DNA from: Bacillota bacterium
GTDB lineage: Bacteria > Bacillota_I > Bacilli_A > Izemoplasmatales > Hujiaoplasmataceae
NCBI GenBank assembly: GCA_003245625.1
Contig: QKCT01000107.1
Coordinates: 1-33,644 of the forward strand
Length of the DNA: 33,644 nt
Direction: 5' to 3'
The notes beneath the pieces were generated by a model. The model was not told the origin of the DNA. It saw nothing but the letters and a program-made list of their open reading frames with translations, and made no database searches. This document shows positions 3,700 through 19,008 of this stretch, piece after piece. The position numbers and the translations under genes are program-made. Position 1 is the stretch's first letter, and each line of letters opens with the position of its first letter.

Positions 3700-3729
3700 T
3701 TTACACGATTATTATTATTATGTTATAAT
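3700..3729 (+). promoter_or_regulatory. Putative SigA-type promoter, extended -10
   Basis: TTTACA (3700-3705), 18-nt spacer, TGTTATAAT with TATAAT at 3724-3729, SD AGGAGGG before 3761. Confidence 0.7.
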
Positions 3730-3760: not shown

Positions 3761-4066
3761 ATGATTTTAAATTCATTGCTAAGAATGAATGCAATCACCG
3801 ATACAATATCTGATTTTGTAGACGATTACGTTGACCAATTAATGGGTATTTTTAATGGTCTTGATTATTGGTTGCAAGCTGTCGTTCTATTAGTAGTTGC
3901 GATTTTTATGTTAATTGGTATATTTGTGTTCTTGAAGAAATTCATTAAATTATTCTTGGTACTCGCTGTTATAGGAGGCATTGGGTACGTTCTTTATACG
4001 CAGGGAATCTTGGATAGTATTTTGAATTCGAGTGCTTATATCACAAGCATCTTTATTGTTTTGTGA
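3761..4066 (+). CDS. Small membrane protein of unknown function (two predicted TM helices)
   Basis: 101 aa with two hydrophobic stretches (WLQAVVLLVVAIFMLIGIFVFL and FIKLFLVLAVIGGIGYVLY); promoter and SD in place. Confidence 0.7.
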   Translation: MILNSLLRMNAITDTISDFVDDYVDQLMGIFNGLDYWLQAVVLLVVAIFMLIGIFVFLKKFIKLFLVLAVIGGIGYVLYTQGILDSILNSSAYITSIFIVL

Positions 4067-4073
4067 AAAATCT

Positions 4074-4105
4074 AGGTTAACCGTGTAAGGTTTCCCTTTT
4101 TTTTT
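4074..4105 (+). terminator. Possible weak rho-independent terminator
   Basis: AGG-tt-AACC gtgtaa GGTT-tc-CCT imperfect hairpin followed by a T9 run. Confidence 0.4.
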
Positions 4106-4169
4106 CTAAAAAAGGCGTCAAAAAATAGTGAAAAATCAAATTTTTTTATAGATTACAGGAGAAATTTTT

Positions 4170-5252
4170 ATGGAAATTAAAATGGAGAATTTAACGAAAG
4201 TTTTTGTTGCAAAAGACAAAAGCGAAGTAAGAGCCGTTGACAATGTCAGTTTGACTATACCTTCGGGAAAACTGATTGGCTTATTGGGGCCATCTGGATG
4301 CGGTAAATCAACAACCCTCTACCTTTTAGCTGGATTGTTGAGACAAAATGATGGAAAAATCTACTTTGAAGAGGACGAGGTTTCAAATACTCCACCCGAA
4401 AAAAGAGGGATAGGTTTGGTCTTCCAAAATTACGCCCTTTATCCACATATGACCGTCAGGGAAAATATCCTATTCCCACTGCAAAACTTAAAAGTTGAAG
4501 CAGAACTTGCAAAACAAAAAACAGTAGAAATGGCAAGATTAGTTGGTTTGGAATCAATGTTGGATCGTAAACCAAAAGAGTTGTCAGGTGGGCAACAACA
4601 ACGCGTTGCTATCGCAAGAGCGTTGGTTAAAACACCAAGAGTATTATTGCTCGATGAACCACTATCAAACTTGGACGCTCGTTTACGTCTCCAAACAAGA
4701 GAAGAAATTAAGAGAATCCAAAGAGAGACACAAATCACAACGGTATTCGTAACGCATGACCAAGAAGAAGCAATGTCTATTTCTGATGAAATCGTCGTAA
4801 TGAAAGACGGAGTTATTCAACAAATGGGTGCTCCTCAAGATGTCTATGATGATCCAAGTAATCTATTTGTTGCTAAATTTCTAGGGAACCCTCAAATCAA
4901 TGTATTCGATGGTGTAATCAAAGGTAAGAAAATTTATATCAACGATATGGTTGTAGGAAAAAGCAAATTACCAGATGGAGAAGTATTAATTGGTATTAGA
5001 CCGGAAGGTTTCATTGTTGACCAAGAAAAGAAAAGCCCATTTAAATTTAACATCGATCTTGTTTCAACCATTGGTAGAGATACAACATTGATTGTTGATT
5101 TACCAAGTGAATCCGATAATATTTTGGATAAAAAATCATTCAAAGCTATTGTTGATGCAATGTTGAGAATCCAATCTGGAGATGAAATTCATTTCATCGT
5201 AAGACCGGAAAAAATGTTCTTATTCAATATGGAAGGAGAGAGATTGGAATAA
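4170..5252 (+). CDS. ABC transporter ATP-binding protein, CUT1 (MsmK/UgpC/MalK-like)
   Basis: Walker A GPSGCGKST, signature LSGGQQQRVAIARAL, Walker B VLLLDEPLSNLD, C-terminal regulatory-like domain. Confidence 0.95.
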   Translation: MEIKMENLTKVFVAKDKSEVRAVDNVSLTIPSGKLIGLLGPSGCGKSTTLYLLAGLLRQNDGKIYFEEDEVSNTPPEKRGIGLVFQNYALYPHMTVRENILFPLQNLKVEAELAKQKTVEMARLVGLESMLDRKPKELSGGQQQRVAIARALVKTPRVLLLDEPLSNLDARLRLQTREEIKRIQRETQITTVFVTHDQEEAMSISDEIVVMKDGVIQQMGAPQDVYDDPSNLFVAKFLGNPQINVFDGVIKGKKIYINDMVVGKSKLPDGEVLIGIRPEGFIVDQEKKSPFKFNIDLVSTIGRDTTLIVDLPSESDNILDKKSFKAIVDAMLRIQSGDEIHFIVRPEKMFLFNMEGERLE

Positions 5253-5255
5253 CAC

Positions 5256-6164
5256 ATGGAAAAAAGAAATAACCTGAAAGCCTGGTTGTATCTTGCTCCA
5301 TTATTGATTCTAATGGGTATCTTCATCTTTTATCCATTGATCAACGCGTTCTATATCTCTATTCTTGAAGAATATAGACCATTGGCGCCAGGTGGGGCAA
5401 CCGCCACAGGCTATACATTAAGCAATTTTGCCAGAATTCTAAATGATGAATTGTTCTGGCAAGCGATCAAGAATACTTTTGTTGTCGCGTTCATATCCGT
5501 TCCAATATCAATTCTAATTTCATTAGTGATTGCTGTTTCTTTGAACTCGATTCCAAAATTAAAAGCATTATATCAAACAGTATTCTTCTTACCTTATGTT
5601 ACCAATGCAATCGCAATTGGTATGGCATTTGCGTTTATGTTCCATAAAGATTATGGTTTGATTAATTTAATGTTGAGTTGGCTCGGAATCGATCCAGTCA
5701 ACTGGGTTGGTAATGTGGCTACATGGTGGGCACAGATGGGAGCATTACTTGTTTATACGATTTGGGGTGGATTAGCATTCAAAATCTTGGTATTTACAAG
5801 TGGATTACAAAATATTGATAAACAATATTATGATGCTGCTAAAATCGATTCCGCATCTAAATGGACAGTATTTCGTAGAATTACAGTTCCGTTGTTATCG
5901 CCATTCATTCTTTATATCTCAATCACTTCGATGATTGGTGCACTTAAAGCATATCGTACTGTCATCGGTTTGTTTGGGGAACGTTTGGGTGCTCAACAGA
6001 ACTCCATGATTACAATTGTTGCATATGTTTATAAGTACAGATCGGCATATCAAGACGTATCTGCTATTTCATACGCAGCTTCCGCTGCGATCATCTTGTT
6101 CTTCATTACGGTAGTTTTCTCGCTGATTCAAGGTGTTGTCAGCAGAAAACGCGTCCATTACTAG
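5256..6164 (+). CDS. ABC transporter permease, MalF/UgpA-like
   Basis: 302 aa, multiple TM segments; EAA-like loop YYDAAKIDSASKWTVFRRITVPLLSP. Confidence 0.93.
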   Translation: MEKRNNLKAWLYLAPLLILMGIFIFYPLINAFYISILEEYRPLAPGGATATGYTLSNFARILNDELFWQAIKNTFVVAFISVPISILISLVIAVSLNSIPKLKALYQTVFFLPYVTNAIAIGMAFAFMFHKDYGLINLMLSWLGIDPVNWVGNVATWWAQMGALLVYTIWGGLAFKILVFTSGLQNIDKQYYDAAKIDSASKWTVFRRITVPLLSPFILYISITSMIGALKAYRTVIGLFGERLGAQQNSMITIVAYVYKYRSAYQDVSAISYAASAAIILFFITVVFSLIQGVVSRKRVHY

Positions 6165-6176
6165 GGAGGTGACATC

Positions 6177-7106
6177 ATGGCGGAAATATTTGTAGAAAAT
6201 GAAAAAGCTTATAAGCGCAGAAGATTGATTTCCAATATTGTCACATTTGGTTTCTTGTCTCTTGTGGCAATTGGTATTTTAATTCCGTTTTATTGGATGA
6301 TCTTAACGTCACTTAAGAGTATTCAAGAAATTGAAAGTGTTCCTCCAATTCTTTGGTTGAACTTTAGTGATTGGAAGATTACAAACTACACAGACTTGTT
6401 CTTGACCGTTCAAAGTGGTGAACGTGCTGGGGAACCGTTGTTCCCATTCTTCACTTATATGAAGAATACCGTATTGATTTCGTTCTTAACTACGTTAGGA
6501 ACAATCATCACAACGATTCTTGCGGCGTTTGCGTTTGCTAGATTGAACTTTAAAGGAAAAGATACTTTATTTGCAGTATTGTTGGCAACGATGATGGTCC
6601 CAGGTGAAATTTTCATTTTGACGAACTTCTTGACTATCAATCAATTCGGATGGTACGACATTTTAACACAAACTTACACAGAAGCAGTGTTGGCGATGAC
6701 GATACCGTTTATGATTTCGGTATTCTATGTCTTTTACTTAAGACAAACATTTAGAAAAATTCCGGATGAATTGTATTTTGCTGCAAAAGTAGATGGTACT
6801 TCGGATTTCAAATATTTATTAAAAATTATGATTCCGATTGCGATGCCAACGATCGTAACCATCATTATTTTGAACTCTATGGGAGCATGGAGTGCATACA
6901 TTTGGCCGGCTATGGTAACAACACAAGACAAATACCGTTTGGTAAGTAATGGTCTTCGTGGTGCCTTCACCGATACAACCGGTCGTACTGATTATGGACA
7001 ACAGATGGCCGCTGCTACTCTCGTCACCGTACCTCTGATTATTCTATTCTTCACGTTTAGAAAACAGATTATGCGTGGTGTTGGTCGAAGCGGTATCAAA
7101 GGATAA
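6177..7106 (+). CDS. ABC transporter permease, MalG/UgpE-like
   Basis: 309 aa, multiple TM segments; EAA-like loop ELYFAAKVDGTSDFKYLLKIMIPIAMP. Confidence 0.93.
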   Translation: MAEIFVENEKAYKRRRLISNIVTFGFLSLVAIGILIPFYWMILTSLKSIQEIESVPPILWLNFSDWKITNYTDLFLTVQSGERAGEPLFPFFTYMKNTVLISFLTTLGTIITTILAAFAFARLNFKGKDTLFAVLLATMMVPGEIFILTNFLTINQFGWYDILTQTYTEAVLAMTIPFMISVFYVFYLRQTFRKIPDELYFAAKVDGTSDFKYLLKIMIPIAMPTIVTIIILNSMGAWSAYIWPAMVTTQDKYRLVSNGLRGAFTDTTGRTDYGQQMAAATLVTVPLIILFFTFRKQIMRGVGRSGIKG

Positions 7107-7131
7107 AAAATAATAGGAGGAGAAATATATA

Positions 7132-8793
7132 ATGAAAAAATTTGTTTTACTACTCGTTACTTTCGTAATTGCATTAGCATTTGCGGGTTGTGTTAACGTT
7201 GGTACAACAGCTAGTACAACAGCTGGTACTCAAGAAACAACAACATTGCAACTTGCTGAAGAACTTCCTGATGAGGAAGTAGAAATTACATTCTGGCACA
7301 TTTATGGTACAGACAAAACAGCTTTATTGGATCAAATGATTGCTGAATTTGAAGCTATGTATCCAAATGTTACTATTACAGACACTTCTCAAACAGATTA
7401 CAATACTTTGAGAGAAAAAATCAACATGGGTATTTCTGTTGACCAAGTTCCTACAATGGCTTTAGGATATCCTGACCATTTTGCTGGATACATTGAAGCA
7501 GACGCAGTTTTGAAATTAGATGATTACATCAATAACACTACAGAATATGAAATCACTAATTCAAGTTCTTCTATCTTTGGGGAAACAGTAACTATCGGTT
7601 TGGATTTAGATGACTTTGTTGCTTCTTATTTGGAAGAAAACAGTCAATATGAAGGTGGATATTATTATTCATTACCATTCTCTAAATCGACTGAGACAAT
7701 GGCTGTTAACGTAGATGTCTTGAAAGCTCACTTGACAGAAATCAGAGCAGCTGGAATTACCATCTCCGACAATGGATTCTTGTCACATGATGTTCCATTA
7801 ACTTATGCTCAAATCGAAGCGTTGGCTGATATCATAGTGGATACAAACGGAACAAATACAACGACAAGCAAATGTGAATACTTATTGAACTATGACTCAT
7901 CTGGTAATATGTTTATCAATATGAGCCGTCAATGGAATGCACCTTACACCAATACAGATGGAGAAATCCTGATTGACAACGATACAACAAAATCAATGTT
8001 ACAATACGTACAAGATCTATTCCTTAATAATACATTGGCATTACCAATTGCTTGGGATCAAAGTTATGGTTCAACAAACTTCAAATATGGTGATGTATGT
8101 ATGTCAGTCGGTTCAACAGCCGGTGTTAACTACAACATTCCTACTGATGCAGATACTCAAGAAAACTTGCAATTTGGACAATTCCAAGTTGACTTCGTTC
8201 CGGTGCCTCAATTCGTTGCGACAGAAGGCGATAGCTTTACTGTAAGTATCGACGGAACAGATTCAACATTTACAGGTTCATTGTCAGCAGTTCAACAAGG
8301 TCCAAACATTGGTATCTTCTCAAGCGCAAGCTCAGCAGAAAAACTATATGCTTGGTTATTCTTGAAATATTTGATCGAAACTGATAACACAGCAAAATGG
8401 GCTATGAACACTGGTTACTTACCAGCTAGACTTTCTTCTTATAGCTCTGAAGCAGCAATCGATCTAACTGCATCTTATTCCACTAATTATGCTGATTTCT
8501 TGCAAATCGCAAAAGATTTCTGGGATGCTGATGGCGAAGTGACTTGGGCAACAACAGATGTAAGATGGAATTACTTGTATTCTTCTATGGTTGCGAATAT
8601 CGCTCAATCTCAAAATACATATTATCAATATGATCCAGCGTTCGCGGCAGGAACTAATAGTGCAGGATCCGCAACAGCCAGAGTTGAAGCCGGATACTGT
8701 TTAGAAAATATCTATATCGGAACACTTGCTTCCGGAAGTAGCTACAACCCGAATACAGCACTGAACACAATGCTTAACCAATTGACTTGGTAA
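7132..8793 (+). CDS. Extracellular solute-binding lipoprotein (family 1, UgpB/MalE-like)
   Basis: Signal peptide with lipobox LAFAGC, Thr-rich linker, EVEITFWHIYGTDKTALLDQMIAEFEAMYPNVTIT; SD AGGAGGAG. Confidence 0.92.
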   Translation: MKKFVLLLVTFVIALAFAGCVNVGTTASTTAGTQETTTLQLAEELPDEEVEITFWHIYGTDKTALLDQMIAEFEAMYPNVTITDTSQTDYNTLREKINMGISVDQVPTMALGYPDHFAGYIEADAVLKLDDYINNTTEYEITNSSSSIFGETVTIGLDLDDFVASYLEENSQYEGGYYYSLPFSKSTETMAVNVDVLKAHLTEIRAAGITISDNGFLSHDVPLTYAQIEALADIIVDTNGTNTTTSKCEYLLNYDSSGNMFINMSRQWNAPYTNTDGEILIDNDTTKSMLQYVQDLFLNNTLALPIAWDQSYGSTNFKYGDVCMSVGSTAGVNYNIPTDADTQENLQFGQFQVDFVPVPQFVATEGDSFTVSIDGTDSTFTGSLSAVQQGPNIGIFSSASSAEKLYAWLFLKYLIETDNTAKWAMNTGYLPARLSSYSSEAAIDLTASYSTNYADFLQIAKDFWDADGEVTWATTDVRWNYLYSSMVANIAQSQNTYYQYDPAFAAGTNSAGSATARVEAGYCLENIYIGTLASGSSYNPNTALNTMLNQLTW

Positions 8794-8814
8794 ATCTAAT
8801 TAAGGACTGATTTA

Positions 8815-10296
8815 ATGTTTAAGAAAGCTTTTTTGCTAATCATAATTGGACTCATGTCGTTTTCGACGATAGCTTGTCAAACAACTACTACAGACGTCAC
8901 CACTGCCACCACAACAAGTGGCAGTGTGGCTCTTCCAGATTTGACTGGGATGTCGCAATCGGAAATTACAACAACTCTAAATAACTTAGGATTAACACCA
9001 AAATTCTATTTTGATGTATCAGTCAGTTATGATTCAGAGGATGATTACGATAAATTTGTGATGTACGGATCCGATCTTGTAGCCGGAGATGTTGTTGCAT
9101 CCGGAACGGAAGTGCGTGTTTATACAACGCCGTTAAACCTAACTCCGGTATATTACAACGATTTAGCTGCATATGATTCATCGCTCCAACTCGAAACCAG
9201 TGATTATACCGGCCAAGAGTTTATAGCGGATGGAATTGGTGAAGTAACTGTTGAGCGTTATGTCGATGGAGATACTACTTTCTTCAGGAGTGGCGGTCAA
9301 ACATTCTCTGTACGCTATTTAGGTATTGATACACCGGAATCTACAGCGCTTTATGAACCATGGGGTAAAGCCGCTGCCAATTATACTAAAGAGAGACTTT
9401 CTACCGCTGAAACTATCGTGTTACAGGCGGAAGGAGATCGTATGGATGGAAACGGAAGATATTTGGCTTGGGTATGGTACATTCCCGAAGGCGAAGATAC
9501 GTTCATTCTTCTCAATTTGGAATTGGTAGAGTTGGCATACTCGAAAGACAAGGTTTCTTCAGGCTCTGTTTATTCTGCCGTTTTATTGCAAGCGGACTGG
9601 AACGCATCACTCACGAAACGTCGTGTTTGGGGCGAACTAGATCCAAACTATGATTATTCCTTGGATGGAACTCAAATGTCCATTCAATACTTAATGGAAA
9701 ACTTCATCGAATACGTTGGTCTAAAAGTTGTTATTACTGGAGAAATCGTAAGAAAACTTGGTAATGGCATTTACATTCAAGACGAAAATGGTTATGGAGT
9801 TTATATGTACATGGGTTATACGACTGACGCGCAACTTCAAGTCGGTGTGAATGTAACGATTTCTGCTTTGGTTCCAACCTTCTATGGTGGATCACCGCAG
9901 TTATCTAGTTACTATCGTACGAACCTGATGGTAAACGATGATGATTTTGTTGTCGTTCCAGAGGTAATCACGTATGATGATTTCACATTCTCGTTGCTCG
10001 GATCTTTAGTTACAATGGAAGATTTGGAAGTGACTAGCATCAGCTATGCCGCTACCAGTTCATCCGAAAGTATCCATGTTGAAGATTCTGCCGGCAATAC
10101 ATTTGTCGTTCGCATTGACGATTCAACAGGATTAAGTTCAGAATCTCTTGGAATTACCGTTGGTTCTATCATCACAGTAACCGGACCGTTAGGATATTAC
10201 GACTACGATTATAATAACGATCCTGAAAGTTATAATTGGTTGGCTGAAAACTTCCAATTGATGATTATTACCAGCGATGATGTCACAATAGAGTAA
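8815..10296 (+). CDS. Secreted lipoprotein nuclease: PASTA-like domain, staphylococcal/thermonuclease (SNase) domain, C-terminal OB-like pair
   Basis: Lipobox STIAC; PASTA-like VALPDLTGMSQSEITTTLNNLGL...GDVVASGTEVRVYTT; SNase VDGDT (D151/D153), RYLGIDTPES (R167, D172, E175), DGNGRYLAWVW (R215). Residue spacing matches SNase D21-R35-D40-E43. Confidence 0.92.
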   Translation: MFKKAFLLIIIGLMSFSTIACQTTTTDVTTATTTSGSVALPDLTGMSQSEITTTLNNLGLTPKFYFDVSVSYDSEDDYDKFVMYGSDLVAGDVVASGTEVRVYTTPLNLTPVYYNDLAAYDSSLQLETSDYTGQEFIADGIGEVTVERYVDGDTTFFRSGGQTFSVRYLGIDTPESTALYEPWGKAAANYTKERLSTAETIVLQAEGDRMDGNGRYLAWVWYIPEGEDTFILLNLELVELAYSKDKVSSGSVYSAVLLQADWNASLTKRRVWGELDPNYDYSLDGTQMSIQYLMENFIEYVGLKVVITGEIVRKLGNGIYIQDENGYGVYMYMGYTTDAQLQVGVNVTISALVPTFYGGSPQLSSYYRTNLMVNDDDFVVVPEVITYDDFTFSLLGSLVTMEDLEVTSISYAATSSSESIHVEDSAGNTFVVRIDDSTGLSSESLGITVGSIITVTGPLGYYDYDYNNDPESYNWLAENFQLMIITSDDVTIE

Positions 10297-10322
10297 ATAA
10301 AAATTTAAATAGGAGGAATTAT

Positions 10323-13300
10323 ATGAAATTATTATTGAAGAGATTGGCTTTATTGACAATCGTCTTCGGTCTTACCATTGCGTTTATCGGATGTAACGAA
10401 ACTAGCACTACAACCGAAGAACAAACAACTGGTACAACGACTGAAAACGTAACAACGACGACAGAAGAGCCAACAACAACAGTTGATTTACTCGCTACCG
10501 TTCCAAATAGAATTATTATCGACGGTTCCGATCAAATCACTGGAAACTTTTTGTTACCTGGCGAAGTTCTAGGTGTAACAATTACCTATGCATCTTCAAA
10601 CACAGATGTAGCAACCATTTCTGAAACTGTAAATGACGATGGATTCTACACTGTTTATATCACTACTCCTTCCATCCCATTGGGTGGCGAAAACACTTCT
10701 GTAGTGATTACAGGTACAATGACTTATGGTGGTGAAACGGAAACATTCACAAAAACAATCCGTGTCATCGCTCAAAACATCATTTTCGTTAATAACATTG
10801 CAGAAGTTCATGCAAATGCAAGTTTGAATGATGTTGTTGAAGTTACTGGTACTGTATTCTCAATCTTTAGTGGTGGATTCTTCATTTATGATGAAACTGG
10901 TACTCTAGGAGTTTATGACAGTTCTGTAGATGTAGCAGTCGGCGATAACATTACCTTAAAAGGTACTTATGCAAACTATTATACATTGTATCAATTAGCT
11001 AGCATCGCTGATTACACAATCAACAGCTCTGGAAATGCAATCACATTACAACCAATCGTATTAGGTAACGGCGCTTATATCGCGAACGCTGATTCCACTG
11101 ACAAAACATTAGCCGGAACATTGTTCACAGTAACAGCATTGTTGGAAGAAAGAACTAATACAAGTGGATATACCAATATGTATTTGGTCGATGTTGATGG
11201 AAATGCAATCGCACAAATCTATCATTATTCAGATTCAGATTCATTGGATGTATTGAAAGCATTGATAGACGAAGTTATTACATTAGATGTTGTTTACTAC
11301 ACTGACCACGGTGATGTTGTTTATGTTTCATTCTATGGAACATCTGCAGATGTAACAGTGGCTGATACAGATGAAAAAGTAGCGGCATTCTATGCAGACG
11401 CATTGGAAATCGAAGATTCTTATGTTAACAATACAAGTTCTGATCTTCCTACTTCAATCGGTGTTGCAACTGTTTCTTGGGCTCCAGGAGCTAGCGAAAC
11501 AAACATTACCGTTTCTGGTAATACAGCAACATTCGCAGATGTTACAGGAGATACAACAGCTGTATTGACAGCAACTGTAACTTATACACCTGATGGTGGA
11601 TCCGCAGTTGTCTTGACAAGAGATTTCACTGTTACAATTCTTGACCAAACAGAAGCTCAATTAGTTGCAACTGACAAAGCTGATCTAGACATCACTTTAA
11701 CAGCAACTGAAATGGATAAAGTAGCATTACCTACCGATGGTGGAATGGGCTCAACAATTACTTGGGCAGTTACTTCAGGGGCGGCATATTTAAGCGGAAC
11801 TAGCGTTGTTTATGACTTCACTGGTGCTGCAGCAAATGTTGTATTGACAGCAACAATCACTAACGGTGCAGCTTCCGATACAAAAGACTTTACTGTCGCT
11901 GTATCACCAATCACTGTTTCTACTATCGCTGACGCATTAGCAGGAACAAATGGAGATTACTTCGCAGTTCGTGGTGTTGTATATTACACAACCGTGAATG
12001 GATTCTTCTTACAAGATGGAAGCAATAAATTATTGGTTTATACAAGTTCAACTCCAACTGTAGCAGTTGGTGACGAAGTTGTTATCTATGGTGCTCGTGC
12101 AGAATACCACGGATCAAAACAAATCCAATACCCTATCGTCAGCTCAGCGATAACAACTGGTAATGATGCAACTCAAACTTCTGAAGGTGCATTTGACCCA
12201 GCAACAACAACATTGCAAACTGGTTATACTTACACTGTTACTGGTACTGTACAATATGGTGCAGTAGTAACTGGTGGTTATGACAACTTGTTCTTTGGAA
12301 CAGGAACTGATGCAGGAACTGCAATGGTTTATTATAAAGCGGATGCTGCTTCTTATGCATTGCTTAAGAGTTTAGTTGGACAAAATATCACAGTTGACCT
12401 AGTATACTACAATGAAGATGCTGTTAGCATGTTCGTATTCTTAGGAACAAGCGATGATATTACAATCAACGGCATCACTGATGCTGAATTGATTACAGCT
12501 GCTTTGAATTCAATTGATTTACCAAACACAGTTACGGAAAATACCACATTGACATTGCCTACTTCCGCATTTGGTGTTGCTTTCACATATTCTTCTGATA
12601 TGGCAAGTTACATTACTGATGCTGGTGTTGTAACCGTTACAGACGGAATGCAAGTTACTGTTACTTTAACTGTTACTGGTACATTCAATTCTTTAACAGA
12701 TACATTGGCAATTGAAATCCAAGTTGGTGAACTTCCTGTTAGTGATATCGCAGACATCTACGATGCAACTAAATTTGAAGAAGGCGACATGATTAAAATC
12801 CAAGGTATCTTAACTGCAGATACAAAAACATCAGCATTCTGGTTACAAGATACTACAAGTGGTATTAACCTTTATGTACCTTCCGCACTTCGTACAGAAT
12901 TCGCTGCATTAACAATTGGTAGTGAATTACTAATCGTTGGTGAGGTTGATATTTATAATGGTTTATATGAAGTAGCTAACTTTACATATGAAGTGATCAG
13001 CGATACACCTGCTCTACCTGCTTCCACTGATATTTCTGATGTAGACTTTACACCAGAAGCATTATTGGCTTACCAAGGACAATTAGTAACTTTGAACGGA
13101 TATACATTGCAATCTGTAATTGCTGATCCAGGAACTTCTGACTTCACATTTACATTGGTAAGTGTTGTCGACGATTCCAAGACAATGTATGTTTATGTAG
13201 ATAGCGATGCATCTGGATTTGCTGCACTTGCAACTGAATTGCAAACTTACTCCGTGGATGATGTATTGATTATTGAAGGTGGTATCCTTGGTTGGTACAA

Positions 13301-15200
13301 CAGCCCTCAATTATTGTTATCTTACGACTCACAAGTTAGATTAGCTACAGATGCAGAATTATTAGCGTTGGAAGTAGCAATGTTTGATCCAACTGCTATG
13401 TTTGAACAAGGTACTACAATTGAAGTTCCATTAGCTGGTGAACTTGGTACTACATTCACATGGGATGTAACTGAAATCACAAATGCTGGTGGTACATTCG
13501 ACGCTTTGACAGGAGAATTAACATTCCCTACATTAACTGCAACTACAACTTACTCTGGTACTGTTACCATCACTATTGGTACAGAATCTCAAGTAGTTAA
13601 TGTTTCAGTGGAAGTATTTGTTTTGACAGATGCTGAAAAATTAGCAGCTGATAAAGCAGAATTAGACATCGCTTTGACTGCTATCGAATTTGATACAGTT
13701 ACACTTCCTGATACATTGACATATGGTTCAGTAGTAACTTGGGCTTTAGATAGCGGAACAGCTACTCTAAATGGAAACGATTTAACATTCGATTATGTTG
13801 GAGCTGATCAAACAGTTGTAGTTACTGCTACATTAACTTATACAAAAGCTGATACTACTACAATCACTGATACAAAATCATTTACTATTACTGTTACTGC
13901 TGCAGAAGTCATTACTGACTTAAGTTTATTGACAAGTATTGCTGATGGCGAAGTAGTGATTTTACAAGGTGTTGTTGCCGGATTTGTTTCTTCTGGATTC
14001 TTCTTAGAAGATGCTTCTGGAAACGGTATCTATCTTTATAAAGGTGAAGGTTACAACGACGGCACTGTCGTCGTTGGTGACCAAGTCATCTATGAAGGAA
14101 CATTGGGTACATATTATGGTGTAAGACAATTGGCAACAGGCGCAGCTTTATTGCATCTAATTGATCAAGGTAATACTCCAGTTGTTACTCCTTATACAGA
14201 AAATGCTTTAGCATTAGCAACAAATGCAGATACAAACTTCCTGATTTCGAATGCAGCATTTGAAATTTCAAATATCGTTTCAGGATCTTATATTGAGTTT
14301 ACTGCAGTTTCTGATGATACATTGACTACTACATTATTCAGATATTATTACACATCTGCAAACCCTTGGTTAGCTGATGTATATTCAGTAGGAGATACAG
14401 TTGATCTTCAATTTGTATTGATTACTTATTATTCTTCTGGATATTGGAAAATTGATGTTGTAACAACAGAAATGACAGATGCACAAGCTCAAGAAGCTGA
14501 TGCAGCTCAATTACCATCAACTTTGACTATGTCAGAAGATGAAGTTTTACCAACACCTTTATATGGTTCTACATTCACTGTTGTTGGAGTTACTGGTGAT
14601 GCAGCAACTTACATTGATTACACTACTACTCCTGGAACATTGATTTTAACAAGTCAACCTTCAGGTGCAGATGCAACTGGTACTGTAACAGTTCAAGTTT
14701 CCATTGGAACTGAATTAGATATCACAGTTGATATCGCTGTAACTGTTAGCCAAGCTATGACTTTGTTATATTCAACAGGATTTGAAACCGCTGAAGGATT
14801 TACAGCTTCTACATCTTACTCAAGTGGTTTTACAGCTAATAATTGGATTGGTGTTTCTGGAGTTGTCACTGCAACTAATGGAACAACAGAAGACTTACAT
14901 TTGCAAATGAGAGATTATGCAGATAGTATTATCCCTTATGCACAATGGTCTGATGGAAGTACCGTTATAACTGTTGTAGTATTCAATGCTTTCACTAATA
15001 CAGCAGGTACACAATTGACTGTTCAATTCTCATTAGATGGTACTACATGGAGTACTGGTACTGTAGTAGATTTAGCAACAACAGATGGAACATTCACTGT
15101 TAATTCTGATTTAGCTAATTCAATCTATGTTCGTTTCTCTGAAACAACAGCTACAGAAAGTTCTCAAAGAGTCAGTCTTGACGACGTCAAAATTTACTAA
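10323..15200 (+). CDS. Giant (1625 aa) modular surface lipoprotein with repeated OB-like and Ig-like modules
   Basis: Lipobox FIGC, Thr/Glu-rich linker; recurring modules of type '..GxVxxxxxxGFFLxDxxGxxxxVYxxxxxxVAVGDxVxxxGxxxxYYGxxQL' and 'xTWxVxSGxAxLxGxxxxxDxxGAxxxVVLTATxT...KxFTVxVxx'; SD AGGAGG. Confidence 0.88.
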   Translation: MKLLLKRLALLTIVFGLTIAFIGCNETSTTTEEQTTGTTTENVTTTTEEPTTTVDLLATVPNRIIIDGSDQITGNFLLPGEVLGVTITYASSNTDVATISETVNDDGFYTVYITTPSIPLGGENTSVVITGTMTYGGETETFTKTIRVIAQNIIFVNNIAEVHANASLNDVVEVTGTVFSIFSGGFFIYDETGTLGVYDSSVDVAVGDNITLKGTYANYYTLYQLASIADYTINSSGNAITLQPIVLGNGAYIANADSTDKTLAGTLFTVTALLEERTNTSGYTNMYLVDVDGNAIAQIYHYSDSDSLDVLKALIDEVITLDVVYYTDHGDVVYVSFYGTSADVTVADTDEKVAAFYADALEIEDSYVNNTSSDLPTSIGVATVSWAPGASETNITVSGNTATFADVTGDTTAVLTATVTYTPDGGSAVVLTRDFTVTILDQTEAQLVATDKADLDITLTATEMDKVALPTDGGMGSTITWAVTSGAAYLSGTSVVYDFTGAAANVVLTATITNGAASDTKDFTVAVSPITVSTIADALAGTNGDYFAVRGVVYYTTVNGFFLQDGSNKLLVYTSSTPTVAVGDEVVIYGARAEYHGSKQIQYPIVSSAITTGNDATQTSEGAFDPATTTLQTGYTYTVTGTVQYGAVVTGGYDNLFFGTGTDAGTAMVYYKADAASYALLKSLVGQNITVDLVYYNEDAVSMFVFLGTSDDITINGITDAELITAALNSIDLPNTVTENTTLTLPTSAFGVAFTYSSDMASYITDAGVVTVTDGMQVTVTLTVTGTFNSLTDTLAIEIQVGELPVSDIADIYDATKFEEGDMIKIQGILTADTKTSAFWLQDTTSGINLYVPSALRTEFAALTIGSELLIVGEVDIYNGLYEVANFTYEVISDTPALPASTDISDVDFTPEALLAYQGQLVTLNGYTLQSVIADPGTSDFTFTLVSVVDDSKTMYVYVDSDASGFAALATELQTYSVDDVLIIEGGILGWYNSPQLLLSYDSQVRLATDAELLALEVAMFDPTAMFEQGTTIEVPLAGELGTTFTWDVTEITNAGGTFDALTGELTFPTLTATTTYSGTVTITIGTESQVVNVSVEVFVLTDAEKLAADKAELDIALTAIEFDTVTLPDTLTYGSVVTWALDSGTATLNGNDLTFDYVGADQTVVVTATLTYTKADTTTITDTKSFTITVTAAEVITDLSLLTSIADGEVVILQGVVAGFVSSGFFLEDASGNGIYLYKGEGYNDGTVVVGDQVIYEGTLGTYYGVRQLATGAALLHLIDQGNTPVVTPYTENALALATNADTNFLISNAAFEISNIVSGSYIEFTAVSDDTLTTTLFRYYYTSANPWLADVYSVGDTVDLQFVLITYYSSGYWKIDVVTTEMTDAQAQEADAAQLPSTLTMSEDEVLPTPLYGSTFTVVGVTGDAATYIDYTTTPGTLILTSQPSGADATGTVTVQVSIGTELDITVDIAVTVSQAMTLLYSTGFETAEGFTASTSYSSGFTANNWIGVSGVVTATNGTTEDLHLQMRDYADSIIPYAQWSDGSTVITVVVFNAFTNTAGTQLTVQFSLDGTTWSTGTVVDLATTDGTFTVNSDLANSIYVRFSETTATESSQRVSLDDVKIY
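10779..14750 (+). repeat. Four protein-level repeat units in the giant lipoprotein, (OB-OB-Ig-Ig)(OB-OB-Ig)(OB-OB-Ig-Ig)(OB-OB-Ig); approximate boundaries 10779-11909, 11913-12731, 12732-13901, 13905-14750
   Basis: Manual alignment of the translated repeats; domain assignment is by pattern, not by profile search. Confidence 0.6.
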
Positions 15201-15236
15201 TTAAAATTTTTTACTCGAAGATTTGATAAAAATTAC

Positions 15237-15267
15237 AAAAGGCGCAACAATTTGTTGTGCCTTTTTT
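15237..15267 (+). terminator. Strong rho-independent terminator ending the nuclease/ABC operon
   Basis: AAAAGGCGCAAC-aattt-GTTGTGCCTTTTTT. Confidence 0.93.
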
Positions 15268-15326
15268 CTTTGTTTTTTCATTTTGGATAATATTTGAGTA
15301 AATATCTGTTGAAAGATTTTGGATTA

Positions 15327-15335
15327 TGTTATAAT
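15327..15335 (+). promoter_or_regulatory. Putative extended -10 promoter for the DHH phosphoesterase pair
   Basis: TGTTATAAT (TATAAT 15330-15335), TTGAAA at 15309-15314 (short 15-nt spacer). Confidence 0.6.
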
Positions 15336-15362: not shown

Positions 15363-16301
15363 ATGAAGGATAAAATACTATCATTTATAAAAGAATATAA
15401 TAATATAATAATAGGGAGACATAAGAATCCTGATTTGGATGCATATGGATCTCAGTTTGGAATGTACTACGCTTTGAAGGAATATTTTCCAGATAAGAAT
15501 ATCTATGTGATAGGAGATACGAATCCGTTAAATCTGTTTCAACCATTTGATGAAGTAGAGGAAGATACAAGAAAAGAAAGTTTACTTCTCATTTTGGACA
15601 CAGTCGCTAAACAGATGCTTGATCCAGAAATCTATCGCACCTATGGAAAATTGATATTAATTGATCACCATCGCAATGAGGTTGATATTGAATGCGATCT
15701 AGCTTATCAATATACAGAAGCTTCCTCAACCGCAGAGATCGTAGCGGATTTATTGATAGAGTGGAATATTCCAATTACCTATGAGTCAGCGAGGGCTTTA
15801 TACTTTGGTATTATCGGTGACACCGGTCGTTTCATGTATAGCAATACAACAGAAAAAACATTGCTGATTGCGTCCAAATTACTTTCCAAAGGATTAAACA
15901 TTCAAGAATTACACAATGAAATTTATTTGGAACCAAGAAAAAATAAAGAAATTAAGAACGCCTTTTTCCAGAAGGTTCAATATACCGCTAAAAATCTCGC
16001 CTATGCAAAAAACGACTTGAATTTCCTAAGTGATTATGGATTATCTACCTCTTATGTGAGTAGAGGGTTGGTAAATCAAATGTCTGGGATGGTCGAAGTA
16101 CCTATTTGGGTAAACTTCACAGAGGAACAAGAGACGAGAAATATCATTTGTGAGATCAGATCAAGGAATATCCCTGTCTTGGATGTCGCAAAAAAATATG
16201 GCGGTGGCGGACATTTAAACGCTTGTGGTTGTACGCTAACTGATTGGAATCAGGCCGATAATGTTATCCAGGATTTGGATAATTTGTTACAGGAGGAATA
16301 A
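15363..16301 (+). CDS. DHH/DHHA1 phosphoesterase (NrnA / oligoribonuclease-pAp phosphatase-like), copy 1
   Basis: HKNPDLDAYGS, LILDT, LIDHHRN, GGGGHLNACGC motifs. Confidence 0.93.
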   Translation: MKDKILSFIKEYNNIIIGRHKNPDLDAYGSQFGMYYALKEYFPDKNIYVIGDTNPLNLFQPFDEVEEDTRKESLLLILDTVAKQMLDPEIYRTYGKLILIDHHRNEVDIECDLAYQYTEASSTAEIVADLLIEWNIPITYESARALYFGIIGDTGRFMYSNTTEKTLLIASKLLSKGLNIQELHNEIYLEPRKNKEIKNAFFQKVQYTAKNLAYAKNDLNFLSDYGLSTSYVSRGLVNQMSGMVEVPIWVNFTEEQETRNIICEIRSRNIPVLDVAKKYGGGGHLNACGCTLTDWNQADNVIQDLDNLLQEE

Positions 16302-16302
16302 A

Positions 16303-17253
16303 ATGGAACATATTTTACAAAAAATCAAGGAATACAAAAAAATTGTCATTCACAAACACGTCAGACCAGATGGAGATTGTTATGGTGCTGGGTTTGGATT
16401 AAAAGAAATTATCAAGGAATCATTCCCTGAAAAAGAAGTGTATGTGGTTGGTGAAACGGCGGATTATGTTAGTTTTATCGGGACACCAGATGTCATCGAG
16501 GATGAATTTTTTCAAGGAGCGCTATCTCTCGTTATTGATACGGCCAGTGCATCAAGAGTTGCCGATCAAAGATTTAAATTAGCTGAATACGTCATAAAGA
16601 TTGACCATCATATCCCAGTTGAAGATTTTGGTGATTATCAATATGTAGATACCACACGCGCCGCGACGGCACAATTGGTTTTAGAGTTCTATCTTAAATT
16701 CCAAGATCAGTTAAAGTTCAATATGAATGCAGCGAAAGCTTTGTATACAGGTATCGTTACTGATACTGGAAGATTTAAATATCGTTCGGTTACAGCGGAT
16801 ACTTTCAAAGCTGTAGCATTCTTAGTGGAATATGGTTTGGATTTCACGGAAATTCTAGGAAAACTAGATATTAAATCTGAAAAACTTATGAAGTTACAAG
16901 GATATGTTCTTCAAAACTTTGAAAAGACTCCAAATGGTGTTGCATACATTAAGATGAAACCAGAAATTATTGAACAGTTTGATGTATCTTTGGAAGAAGC
17001 AACATCACTTGTAAATGAATTATCAACGTTAGAAGATTGTCCAGTATGGATGTTATTCGCAGAATATGAGAATAATTTTGTTAGAGGGCGACTTCGTAGT
17101 CGAAAACCTGCGATAGATTTATTAGCAAACAAATATAATGGCGGTGGACATAAACTAGCATGCGGAGCCAATCTTGGGGATTGGGATACCGTTGAAAAAT
17201 TACTAGTGGATGCCGACGAATTGGTACGCGAATTCAAAAGCAGTATGAAATAG
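16303..17253 (+). CDS. DHH/DHHA1 phosphoesterase (NrnA-like), copy 2
   Basis: HVRPDGDCYGA, VIDTAS, IDHHIP, GGGHKLACGA; ATG 16303 behind SD AGGAGG rather than the longer ORF start at 16261. Confidence 0.93.
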   Translation: MEHILQKIKEYKKIVIHKHVRPDGDCYGAGFGLKEIIKESFPEKEVYVVGETADYVSFIGTPDVIEDEFFQGALSLVIDTASASRVADQRFKLAEYVIKIDHHIPVEDFGDYQYVDTTRAATAQLVLEFYLKFQDQLKFNMNAAKALYTGIVTDTGRFKYRSVTADTFKAVAFLVEYGLDFTEILGKLDIKSEKLMKLQGYVLQNFEKTPNGVAYIKMKPEIIEQFDVSLEEATSLVNELSTLEDCPVWMLFAEYENNFVRGRLRSRKPAIDLLANKYNGGGHKLACGANLGDWDTVEKLLVDADELVREFKSSMK

Positions 17254-17262
17254 TTTTTACAC

Positions 17263-17290
17263 TTGTTTTTTTACTTTGATTTGATATAAT
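17263..17290 (+). promoter_or_regulatory. Putative SigA promoter for the Na/Pi cotransporter
   Basis: TTGTTT (17263-17268), 16-nt spacer, TATAAT (17285-17290). Confidence 0.6.
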
Positions 17291-17331
17291 AATAGCGGTT
17301 TTCTATATCCATATCGATCAAGGAGATAAAA

Positions 17332-19008
17332 ATGCCACATCTGTTTTTGGAAATTGAATGGGAAATAACGATATTTTCCATCCTTGGAGGACTAGGCGTC
17401 TTCTTATACGGAATCAATCTGATGAGCGATTCTCTCAAAAAAATTGCGGGGTCCAAATTAAAATTGATTTTGGAAAAAACGACCAATACACCATTAAAAG
17501 GTATATTCGTCGGTATTTTCATTACAGCGATTATTCAATCATCATCCGCAACGAGTGCTTTGGTCGTTGGTTTGGTTCGTGCCGGATTAATGACGTTACC
17601 GCAAGCGGTTGGAGTAATCTTTGGGGCTAATATTGGTACAACATTTACGTCTGTCCTTATATCTTTAAGTATCGGAGATTATAAATACCCGATTATGTTC
17701 GTTGGAGCCGTCATGATTTTCTTTATTCAAAATAAGAAAGTCAAGAATTACGGTAGAACTTTGATGGGATTTGGGATGTTATTCTTTGGATTGGAAACCA
17801 TGGGAGATGCTTTAAAAGAATTTTCCACATTGCCAGGGTATGTGAACTTACTATCTGCAGTATCCAATCATCCGATTCTTGGTGTTTTGACAGGTGCCGC
17901 AACTACGGCAGTTATTCAATCATCTTCCGCTACCATCGGTATCCTACAAACATTGTATAATAATGGCGGAGTTCCGCTTGTCGGTGCGATTGCCATTGTA
18001 TTAGGTGATAATATAGGTACAACCGTTACTTCTGTAATGGCATCGATTGGAGGATCCTCTCAAGCAAAACGCGCTGCTATGATTCACGTTATGTTTAATA
18101 CAATCGGTACGGTTGTGTTCTTCATTTTAATCAAACCTTATAGCATGTTAATCGAATGGTTTGCTCAAGTGGTTGGAATCACCGATTGGGAAACAAGTCG
18201 ATTTACGATATCACTTGCTCACGTTGGATTCAATTTGATTAACGTATTTATCCTATACTTCTTTATACGCCAGATGGTTTGGCTTGTCAGCAAAATCATT
18301 CCAAGTAAGGGAGAGATTCTCGCCAATGAGATCGCTTTGGAAGAAACTTTGGTTAAAGAATCACCGGATTTAGCATTAGAGAATGTGAAAAATGCAATTG
18401 GCAATATGGGTAATGTTGCAAGAGGCATGTACGAATTTGTTTACAACTATGCATTCACAAAAGATGCAAAAGAATTAGAAATGGTCAATCAATGTGAAGA
18501 ATTACTCGATGATATGGATGATAAGATTCATAACTATCTCGTTAAAATCGGTGCTCAAGATTTGGTGGATCGTCAGATCCAACAAGTCGCAAAGGATATC
18601 GATACTATCACTGACGTGGAACGTATTGGTGACCACTTAAATAACTTATCTGAATTCTTCGAAATGCGTCATGAGAAGAAACTCGGATTCCATGACAAAG
18701 CAAGAGAAGAATTAGAAGAATTATTTGAAATTTTAAGACGAACATTAGATCAAGCCATCAATGCCTATATTAATATGGATAGAGACTTAGCACTCGAAGT
18801 TAACGCAAGAGAAGATAAGTTAGATCGCATGGTTAAGAAATTCCGTAAGAATCATATTAACCGCATCAACGATAAGACTTGTGAAGAATTCGAAGCCGGA
18901 TTCTATGTTGATATTCTATCAAATATGGAACGCATTGGAGATCACTGCAATAACATGGCAATTAACGTTTTAACCGATGATTTTACACATGATGACCAGT
19001 ACTATTGA
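17332..19008 (+). CDS. Na+/phosphate cotransporter family protein with C-terminal PhoU-like helical domain
   Basis: Two QSSSATSALVVG / QSSSATIGILQ inverted-repeat motifs, GANIGTTFTS / GDNIGTTVTS; C-terminal PhoU-like DIDTITDVERIGDHLNNLSEF and NMERIGDHCNNMA. Confidence 0.95.
   Translation: MPHLFLEIEWEITIFSILGGLGVFLYGINLMSDSLKKIAGSKLKLILEKTTNTPLKGIFVGIFITAIIQSSSATSALVVGLVRAGLMTLPQAVGVIFGANIGTTFTSVLISLSIGDYKYPIMFVGAVMIFFIQNKKVKNYGRTLMGFGMLFFGLETMGDALKEFSTLPGYVNLLSAVSNHPILGVLTGAATTAVIQSSSATIGILQTLYNNGGVPLVGAIAIVLGDNIGTTVTSVMASIGGSSQAKRAAMIHVMFNTIGTVVFFILIKPYSMLIEWFAQVVGITDWETSRFTISLAHVGFNLINVFILYFFIRQMVWLVSKIIPSKGEILANEIALEETLVKESPDLALENVKNAIGNMGNVARGMYEFVYNYAFTKDAKELEMVNQCEELLDDMDDKIHNYLVKIGAQDLVDRQIQQVAKDIDTITDVERIGDHLNNLSEFFEMRHEKKLGFHDKAREELEELFEILRRTLDQAINAYINMDRDLALEVNAREDKLDRMVKKFRKNHINRINDKTCEEFEAGFYVDILSNMERIGDHCNNMAINVLTDDFTHDDQYY

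Follow-up and report, generated by a model that had tools for sequence, protein, structure and literature searches.

A conserved nuclease–CUT1 importer locus for probable dinucleotide salvage in an Izemoplasmatales genome

Overview

The window, a 33,644-nucleotide stretch of contig QKCT01000107.1 (assembly GCA_003245625.1) from an Izemoplasmatales bacterium, contains a locus that very probably serves to forage nucleic acids. As a whole, it is best explained, in our judgement with reasonable probability, by a pathway comprising a surface SNase, dinucleotide capture and CUT1-type import, and NrnA-like splitting inside the cell. In this pathway, the lipid-anchored SNase would cut extracellular DNA or RNA into short oligonucleotides at the surface of the cell, and a giant OB/Ig lipoprotein would probably keep the polymer near the membrane through the type of OB pair that is also present on the nuclease. 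The ligand captured by the binding lipoprotein would be a linear phosphodiester and most likely a dinucleotide, which the CUT1 importer would then take in. Two NrnA-like enzymes would split the dinucleotide into mononucleotides in the cytosol, and a Na/Pi transporter may handle the phosphate set free. The sequence itself shows the order of the genes and how it is conserved, the catalytic residues of the SNase, the OB modules common to nuclease and giant, and the conserved dinucleotide-type contacts.

Organization of the locus

The features of the locus are listed in Table 1. Consistent with the original prediction of six tightly spaced genes, most with their own Shine–Dalgarno sequence, the six same-strand ORFs from the ATPase gene to the giant gene are separated by gaps of 3, 12, 25, 21, and 26 nt, and Shine–Dalgarno-like sequences precede most of their starts. 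The strong terminator expected after the giant gene forms a hairpin of 13 pairs (-18 kcal/mol, z = -4.7). Domain searches identified a MalK-type ATPase, two permeases, and an SBP_bac_1/8 binding protein, and all three secreted proteins possess lipobox-like N-termini (C20, C21, and C24), bearing out the claim of a complete CUT1 importer combined with a lipid-anchored SNase nuclease.

The six predicted genes are real, but the conserved unit is larger. In the window as in its relatives, recR and a small membrane-protein gene lie upstream, and the NrnA-like pair and the Na/Pi transporter gene (15363–19008) lie downstream. The span originally proposed, 4170–15267, leaves out the half of the pathway that would take place in the cytosol. 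The locus shows synteny with dnaX–recR, and its order-level arrangement is dnaX, ybaB, recR, the small membrane-protein gene, the ATPase gene, two permease genes, the binding-protein gene, the SNase gene, the giant gene, often a second SNase gene, two DHH-DHHA1 genes, and the Na/Pi gene. The window carries every gene of this series except the second SNase. The synteny is kept in part across the class, in which regions from other families retain the order of importer, SNase, and large lipoprotein. A Pfam search with the 101-aa small membrane protein gave no match. Upstream of dnaX, positions 174–899 encode a stand-alone 241-aa protein that has the N-terminal and mobile domains of PTS enzyme I-type proteins and no others; it occupies the same place in several relatives.

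The spacing of the genes suggests that 3761–15200 constitutes one transcription unit. The best promoter-like match is located upstream of 3761 and not of 4170, although the number of promoter-like sites in the window is not above chance. The NrnA-like pair, set apart from the six-gene operon by the strong terminator, probably has its own promoter, and a TTGAAA-15-TATAAT sequence is found between the terminator and the pair, at about 15309–15335. An Rfam search of the window detected no RNA family.

Table 1. Features of the locus, with positions in the window
Feature	Position	Strand	Basis or remarks
Candidate operon promoter, TTTACA-18-TATAAT, extended -10	3700–3729	+	Consensus match only, 11/12
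Gene for a small 101-aa membrane protein, flanked by recR and the ATPase gene in relatives too	3761–4066	+	Position conserved
CUT1-type ABC ATPase, UgpC/MalK-like	4170–5252	+	ABC_tran with MalK/UgpC-like C-terminus
CUT1 permease 1, UgpA/MalF-like	5256–6164	+	BPD_transp_1
CUT1 permease 2, UgpE/MalG-like; close relatives SNase-linked	6177–7106	+	BPD_transp_1
Substrate-binding lipoprotein	7132–8793	+	SBP_bac_8/SBP_bac_1; AF2 model, Foldseek, profile search, contact mapping
Lipoprotein nuclease: lipobox C21, PASTA, SNase, tandem OB pair	8815–10296	+	Domain search, alignment, model
SNase catalytic domain; D153, R167, D172, T173, E175, R215 kept	9310–9630	+	Alignment
Tandem OB module of the nuclease, common to the giant lipoprotein	9664–10293	+	Family profile
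Giant lipoprotein, 1625 aa, of aBig_2 and OB modules	10323–15200	+	Domain searches, profiles
Giant OB module 1, aa 171–296	10833–11210	+	Nuclease C-terminus family profile
Giant OB module 2, aa 529–602	11907–12128	+	Nuclease C-terminus family profile
Giant OB pair 3, aa 821–1005	12783–13337	+	Nuclease C-terminus family profile
Giant OB pair 4, aa 1211–1370	13953–14432	+	Nuclease C-terminus family profile
Intrinsic terminator, 3' of the giant gene	15237–15265	+	Hairpin energy and z score
NrnA-like DHH-DHHA1 phosphoesterase 1	15363–16301	+	202 bits vs NCBIfam NrnA equivalog cut-off 350
NrnA-like DHH-DHHA1 phosphoesterase 2	16303–17253	+	245 bits vs cut-off 350
Na/Pi transporter with PhoU domains, conserved in the locus	17332–19008	+	Domain search, synteny

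Coupling of the importer to an SNase gene

The co-occurrence of nuclease and transporter, for which the original prediction had proposed a search, was counted in 80 named loci (L134–L213) fetched by permease similarity alone; the set covers the closest relatives and not CUT1 permeases as a whole. Only this set was counted, because L032–L063 had been selected by their SNase and L094–L125 partly by SNase adjacency. A six-frame profile search, which removed some apparent SNase gaps that were ORF-picking artefacts in GC-rich contigs, revealed, in 76 of the 80 loci, an SNase encoded on the same strand no more than 4.3 kb away (median 1.9 kb), and the remaining four contigs stop 0.4–3.4 kb downstream of the permease gene. 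The loci span Bacilli and Clostridia, including MAGs labelled Oscillospiraceae, Lachnospiraceae, and Christensenellaceae. A transporter conserved without the nuclease and beside glycosidases, the case named in advance as speaking against a link, was not found among them; the four loci in which no SNase is seen lie on contigs that end too early. The view that the nuclease and the importer form one conserved unit is supported by this genomic survey.

Among all 138 loci examined, L113 is the only true exception, with NrnA and SurE in place of the SNase; in L109 and L110, the SNase lies slightly farther downstream, past the giant gene. The L113 region (3989–10099), which lies in a genome of 3 Mb from a different family, carries the same-family CUT1 importer followed by the NrnA-like and SurE genes. 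Nucleotide enzymes thus flank related importers, namely SurE in L113 and a 5'-nucleotidase (NT5C)–guanylate kinase fusion in L177. In the latter type of Clostridia locus (L177:4352–6289), the fusion and an RDD membrane protein are encoded just upstream of the importer, and the RDD gene recurs in L122 and L165. In congeneric and same-family genomes (L123, L124, and L125), recR and the NrnA pair enclose a different form of the locus, in which a PASTA–lamin tail–SNase gene is located upstream of the ATPase gene and the permease and binding protein are longer; this suggests replacement at one site.

The binding-protein profile A1 was rejected as the sole definition of the importer family, as it is too general and also matches unlinked CUT1 binding proteins. 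Very small genomes (0.6–0.9 Mb) from genus g139 of family f12 show a single match to the binding protein (E about 1e-57 to 1e-69) and do not appear in the SNase list; this match may be what remains of an importer without its nuclease. In the sampled SNase-bearing TGA-readthrough genomes (f17), no orthologous CUT1 locus was found beside the SNase, and the mycoplasma link therefore rests on the literature. The sequence tie to mycoplasmas is a weak match to P68 lipoproteins in the domain search.

Binding protein and the imported substrate

In a Foldseek search with the AF2 model of the binding protein (pLDDT 87), the best 25 PDB chains are dinucleotide-binding proteins holding UpG (E 4.5e-22), and UgpB follows behind them (E 1.1e-19). 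A sequence search with the family profile also places dinucleotide-binding proteins first (2.7e-35), with 125 bits for the dinucleotide-binding protein versus 112 bits for the UgpB family. Since the UgpB family is close in both fold and profile score, the evidence is stronger for the binding of a phosphodiester than for the length of a dinucleotide. The nearest solved structure is that of the Thermus thermophilus dinucleotide-binding protein (PDB 7c0f to 7c19), which is only about 18% identical to the window protein.

For contact mapping, we used the eight Thermus residues mutated by the PDB depositors, whose status as ligand contacts was deduced from the PDB entry titles; the numbering was checked on four mutants, and one constant offset fits. 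Y56, F79, N81, S127, Y224, T240, Y246, and Q274 align with Y90, Y113, D115, S186, Y312, S328, Y334, and Q389 of the window protein; at each of these eight tested positions, the window residue equals its Thermus counterpart or is chemically similar to it. The UpG of the Thermus structures reportedly co-purified with the protein. Among 157 homologues, the majority residue is likewise identical or similar to that of Thermus at all eight positions. Conservation reaches 90% or more at seven of the eight, as compared with 36 of 378 columns overall (hypergeometric P about 3e-7), and 99% or more at five (P 2.5e-6), these P values serving only as a guide because the homologues are related. Eight other alignable binding proteins of the genome lack the contact set.

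A set of Tyr and Ser residues coordinates the phosphate in UgpB and in the glycerophosphocholine- and UpG-binding proteins (PMC12718374), and this set is kept in the window protein. E. coli UgpB likewise combines the CUT1 fold with phosphate-coordinating Tyr/Ser residues, but lacks the contacts common to the window protein and the dinucleotide protein: at D115, K185, E188, Y312, Y334, and Q389, the window protein equals or resembles the Thermus protein, whereas UgpB differs. The UgpB-specific pocket residues are absent from the window protein, and agreement with UgpB is mainly confined to the shared phosphate set (Y90, S186, S328, and Y429), Y113, and R517. Furthermore, UgpB belongs to a glycerol-3-phosphate operon with ugpQ, while the window locus is without UgpQ.

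Two Bmp-type (nucleoside) binding proteins are encoded elsewhere in the genome, and therefore a separate nucleoside uptake route is likely. The original prediction considered the cargo to be a product of extracellular nucleic-acid digestion, which probably holds; its broad list of oligonucleotides, nucleotides, deoxyribose phosphate, and similar compounds most likely narrows to a phosphodiester, with a dinucleotide foremost. On balance, the residue comparisons favor a mainly dinucleotide import over a mononucleotide import.

Nuclease and giant lipoprotein

The SNase domain was matched in the genome search with 38.8 bits, above the cut-off, and D21, R35, D40, E43, and R87 of the S. aureus nuclease align with D153, R167, D172, E175, and R215 of the window protein. 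The fold of the nuclease model matches SNase structures; the relative placement of its domains is not trusted because the overall pTM is low (0.49). A PHROGs search returned generic nuclease matches only. According to the SNase family search, the genome (about 90% complete) contains one SNase-domain gene. The nuclease also bears a PASTA domain (aa 38–104; window 8926–9126). PASTA domains are usually tied to peptidoglycan, but a search for a penicillin-binding transpeptidase gave no match in this genome (about 90% complete).

In the giant lipoprotein, domain searches found five aBig_2 stretches and one OB-fold match, and neither a nuclease nor a lamin-tail domain, although the latter is present in the giants of relatives. 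The proposal that the nuclease and the 1625-aa lipoprotein have OB modules in common was confirmed with a profile built from 25 orthologues of the nuclease C-terminus (aa 284–493), which matches the giant at several places (E = 4.4e-15); the best of 200 shuffled giants reached E = 0.06 in the control with a single-module profile. This relation is seen by family profiles only, as pairwise BLAST between the nuclease C-terminus and the giant was not significant. A PDB search with the giant gave no sequence relative. Based on its OB modules, which we assume to bind nucleic acids, the giant may act as a nucleic-acid holder.

Downstream genes

Both phosphoesterases carry DHH and DHHA1 domains, and the pair is conserved in the locus. 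They are named NrnA-like only because their scores fall below the equivalog cut-off. The listed ORF of phosphoesterase 2 starts at 16261, and the ATG at 16303 fits better. In Mycoplasma bovis, a tandem NrnA pair acts on linear dinucleotides, cleaving pApA and pGpG (PMC7373297).

Alternative explanations

SNase releases 3'-phosphorylated mono- and oligonucleotides, so the importer might carry mononucleotides (3'-NMPs) or mixed short phosphorylated oligonucleotides instead of dinucleotides specifically, and SurE, of a nucleotidase family, is encoded beside the importer in L113. We consider this doubtful, given that the match to the dinucleotide protein extends to contacts outside the phosphate set and that NrnA-like pairs act on dinucleotides (PMC7373297). 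The import of nucleosides or nucleobases, made outside the cell by the nuclease and nucleotidases, is the published interpretation, which Wasmund et al. suggested from the gene neighbourhood (PMC8289736), and nucleotidases are indeed present in related loci. However, a secreted nucleotidase is absent from the window operon, the conserved Tyr/Ser phosphate set would be useless for a nucleoside, NrnA-like enzymes require phosphodiester substrates, and the genome has its Bmp-type proteins elsewhere; this cargo thus appears unlikely.

The UgpB-like fold and profile similarity would also fit an ordinary importer of glycerol-3-phosphate, glycerophosphodiesters, or sugars that merely lies beside a nuclease. 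The near-universal SNase linkage, the lack of glycosidase and UgpQ genes in the locus, and a pocket with dinucleotide-type contacts in place of the UgpB-specific features make this very improbable. We give still less weight, and scarcely any, to a role of the nuclease and the giant mainly in surface defence or biofilm clearing with nutrient import secondary. Mycoplasma surface nucleases can act in this way according to the review literature, and the supernatant of strain zrk29 inhibited biofilm formation (PMC10470597); nevertheless, the importer and the cytosolic NrnA-like pair are conserved, and DNA or RNA promotes the growth of relatives (PMC8397711, PMC10470597).

Significance

The cargo of nuclease-linked ABC importers has so far been guessed from gene neighbourhood only. 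If dinucleotide salvage is correct, such import would avoid full extracellular digestion to nucleosides, and would represent a distinct uptake route with a nutritional role for NrnA-like enzymes. Sediment and gut bacteria that feed on extracellular DNA are important to the recycling of phosphorus and nitrogen, and mycoplasmas rely on the nucleic acids of their hosts. We see an even chance that a dedicated route of dinucleotide salvage, through surface SNase, binding lipoprotein, CUT1 importer, and NrnA-like enzymes, occurs widely among wall-less Bacilli and the Clostridia of gut and rumen, and that the mycoplasma nuclease–ABC operons serve the same function. The dinucleotide assignment can be checked with one purified protein.

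Comparison with known systems

The original prediction held that the full composition with the giant lipoprotein might be new; it has in fact already been published (PMC8289736, PMC8397711, PMC10470597, PMC3585158). Wasmund et al. (2021) described an Izemoplasmatales "DNA-degradation locus" in Ca. Izemoplasmataceae and the GTDB family UBA5603 (PMC8289736). The closest named relative of the window genome (L135) belongs to UBA5603, the same family as the window genome. Those loci comprise an extracellular nuclease, an ABC transporter, 3'-5' nucleases, a phosphate transporter, and a large nucleic-acid-binding protein (PMC8289736, Fig. 6), and the window has their counterparts in the nuclease (8815–10296), the ABC transporter (4170–8793), and the NrnA-like pair with the Na/Pi transporter (15363–19008). 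The giant is the local version of the published large nucleic-acid-binding lipoprotein, lacking the lamin-tail domain present in many relatives. The published loci also include a phosphate ABC transporter (PMC8289736) and multiple extracellular nucleases, whereas the window has one SNase gene and its 1625-aa giant lacks a lamin-tail or nuclease domain. In contrast to the nucleoside or nucleobase reading of Wasmund et al., we interpret the substrate as probably a dinucleotide.

Nucleic-acid degradation loci are also known in the cultured Xianfuyuplasma coldseepsis zrk13 (PMC8397711) and Hujiaoplasma nucleasis zrk29 (PMC10470597), which are of different families; these strains grow better with nucleic acids, which also induce such loci (PMC8397711, PMC10470597). 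Compared by their published descriptions, both loci resemble the window in having a nuclease and an ABC transporter, and that of zrk29 also in NrnA, a nucleoid-associated protein, and RecR. In Mycoplasma agalactiae, the P80-MAG_5040-ABC operon contains co-transcribed genes for a binding lipoprotein, an SNase, an ATPase, and two permeases (PMC3585158); its gene order differs from that of the window, and a giant protein is not reported. Given these published examples, this kind of locus is known. What is new here, beyond them, is the SNase coupling of the permease-selected loci, the dinucleotide-type binding pocket, and the conserved NrnA-like pair directly downstream. The window is a real and well-conserved member of the published locus type, with a sharper substrate assignment.
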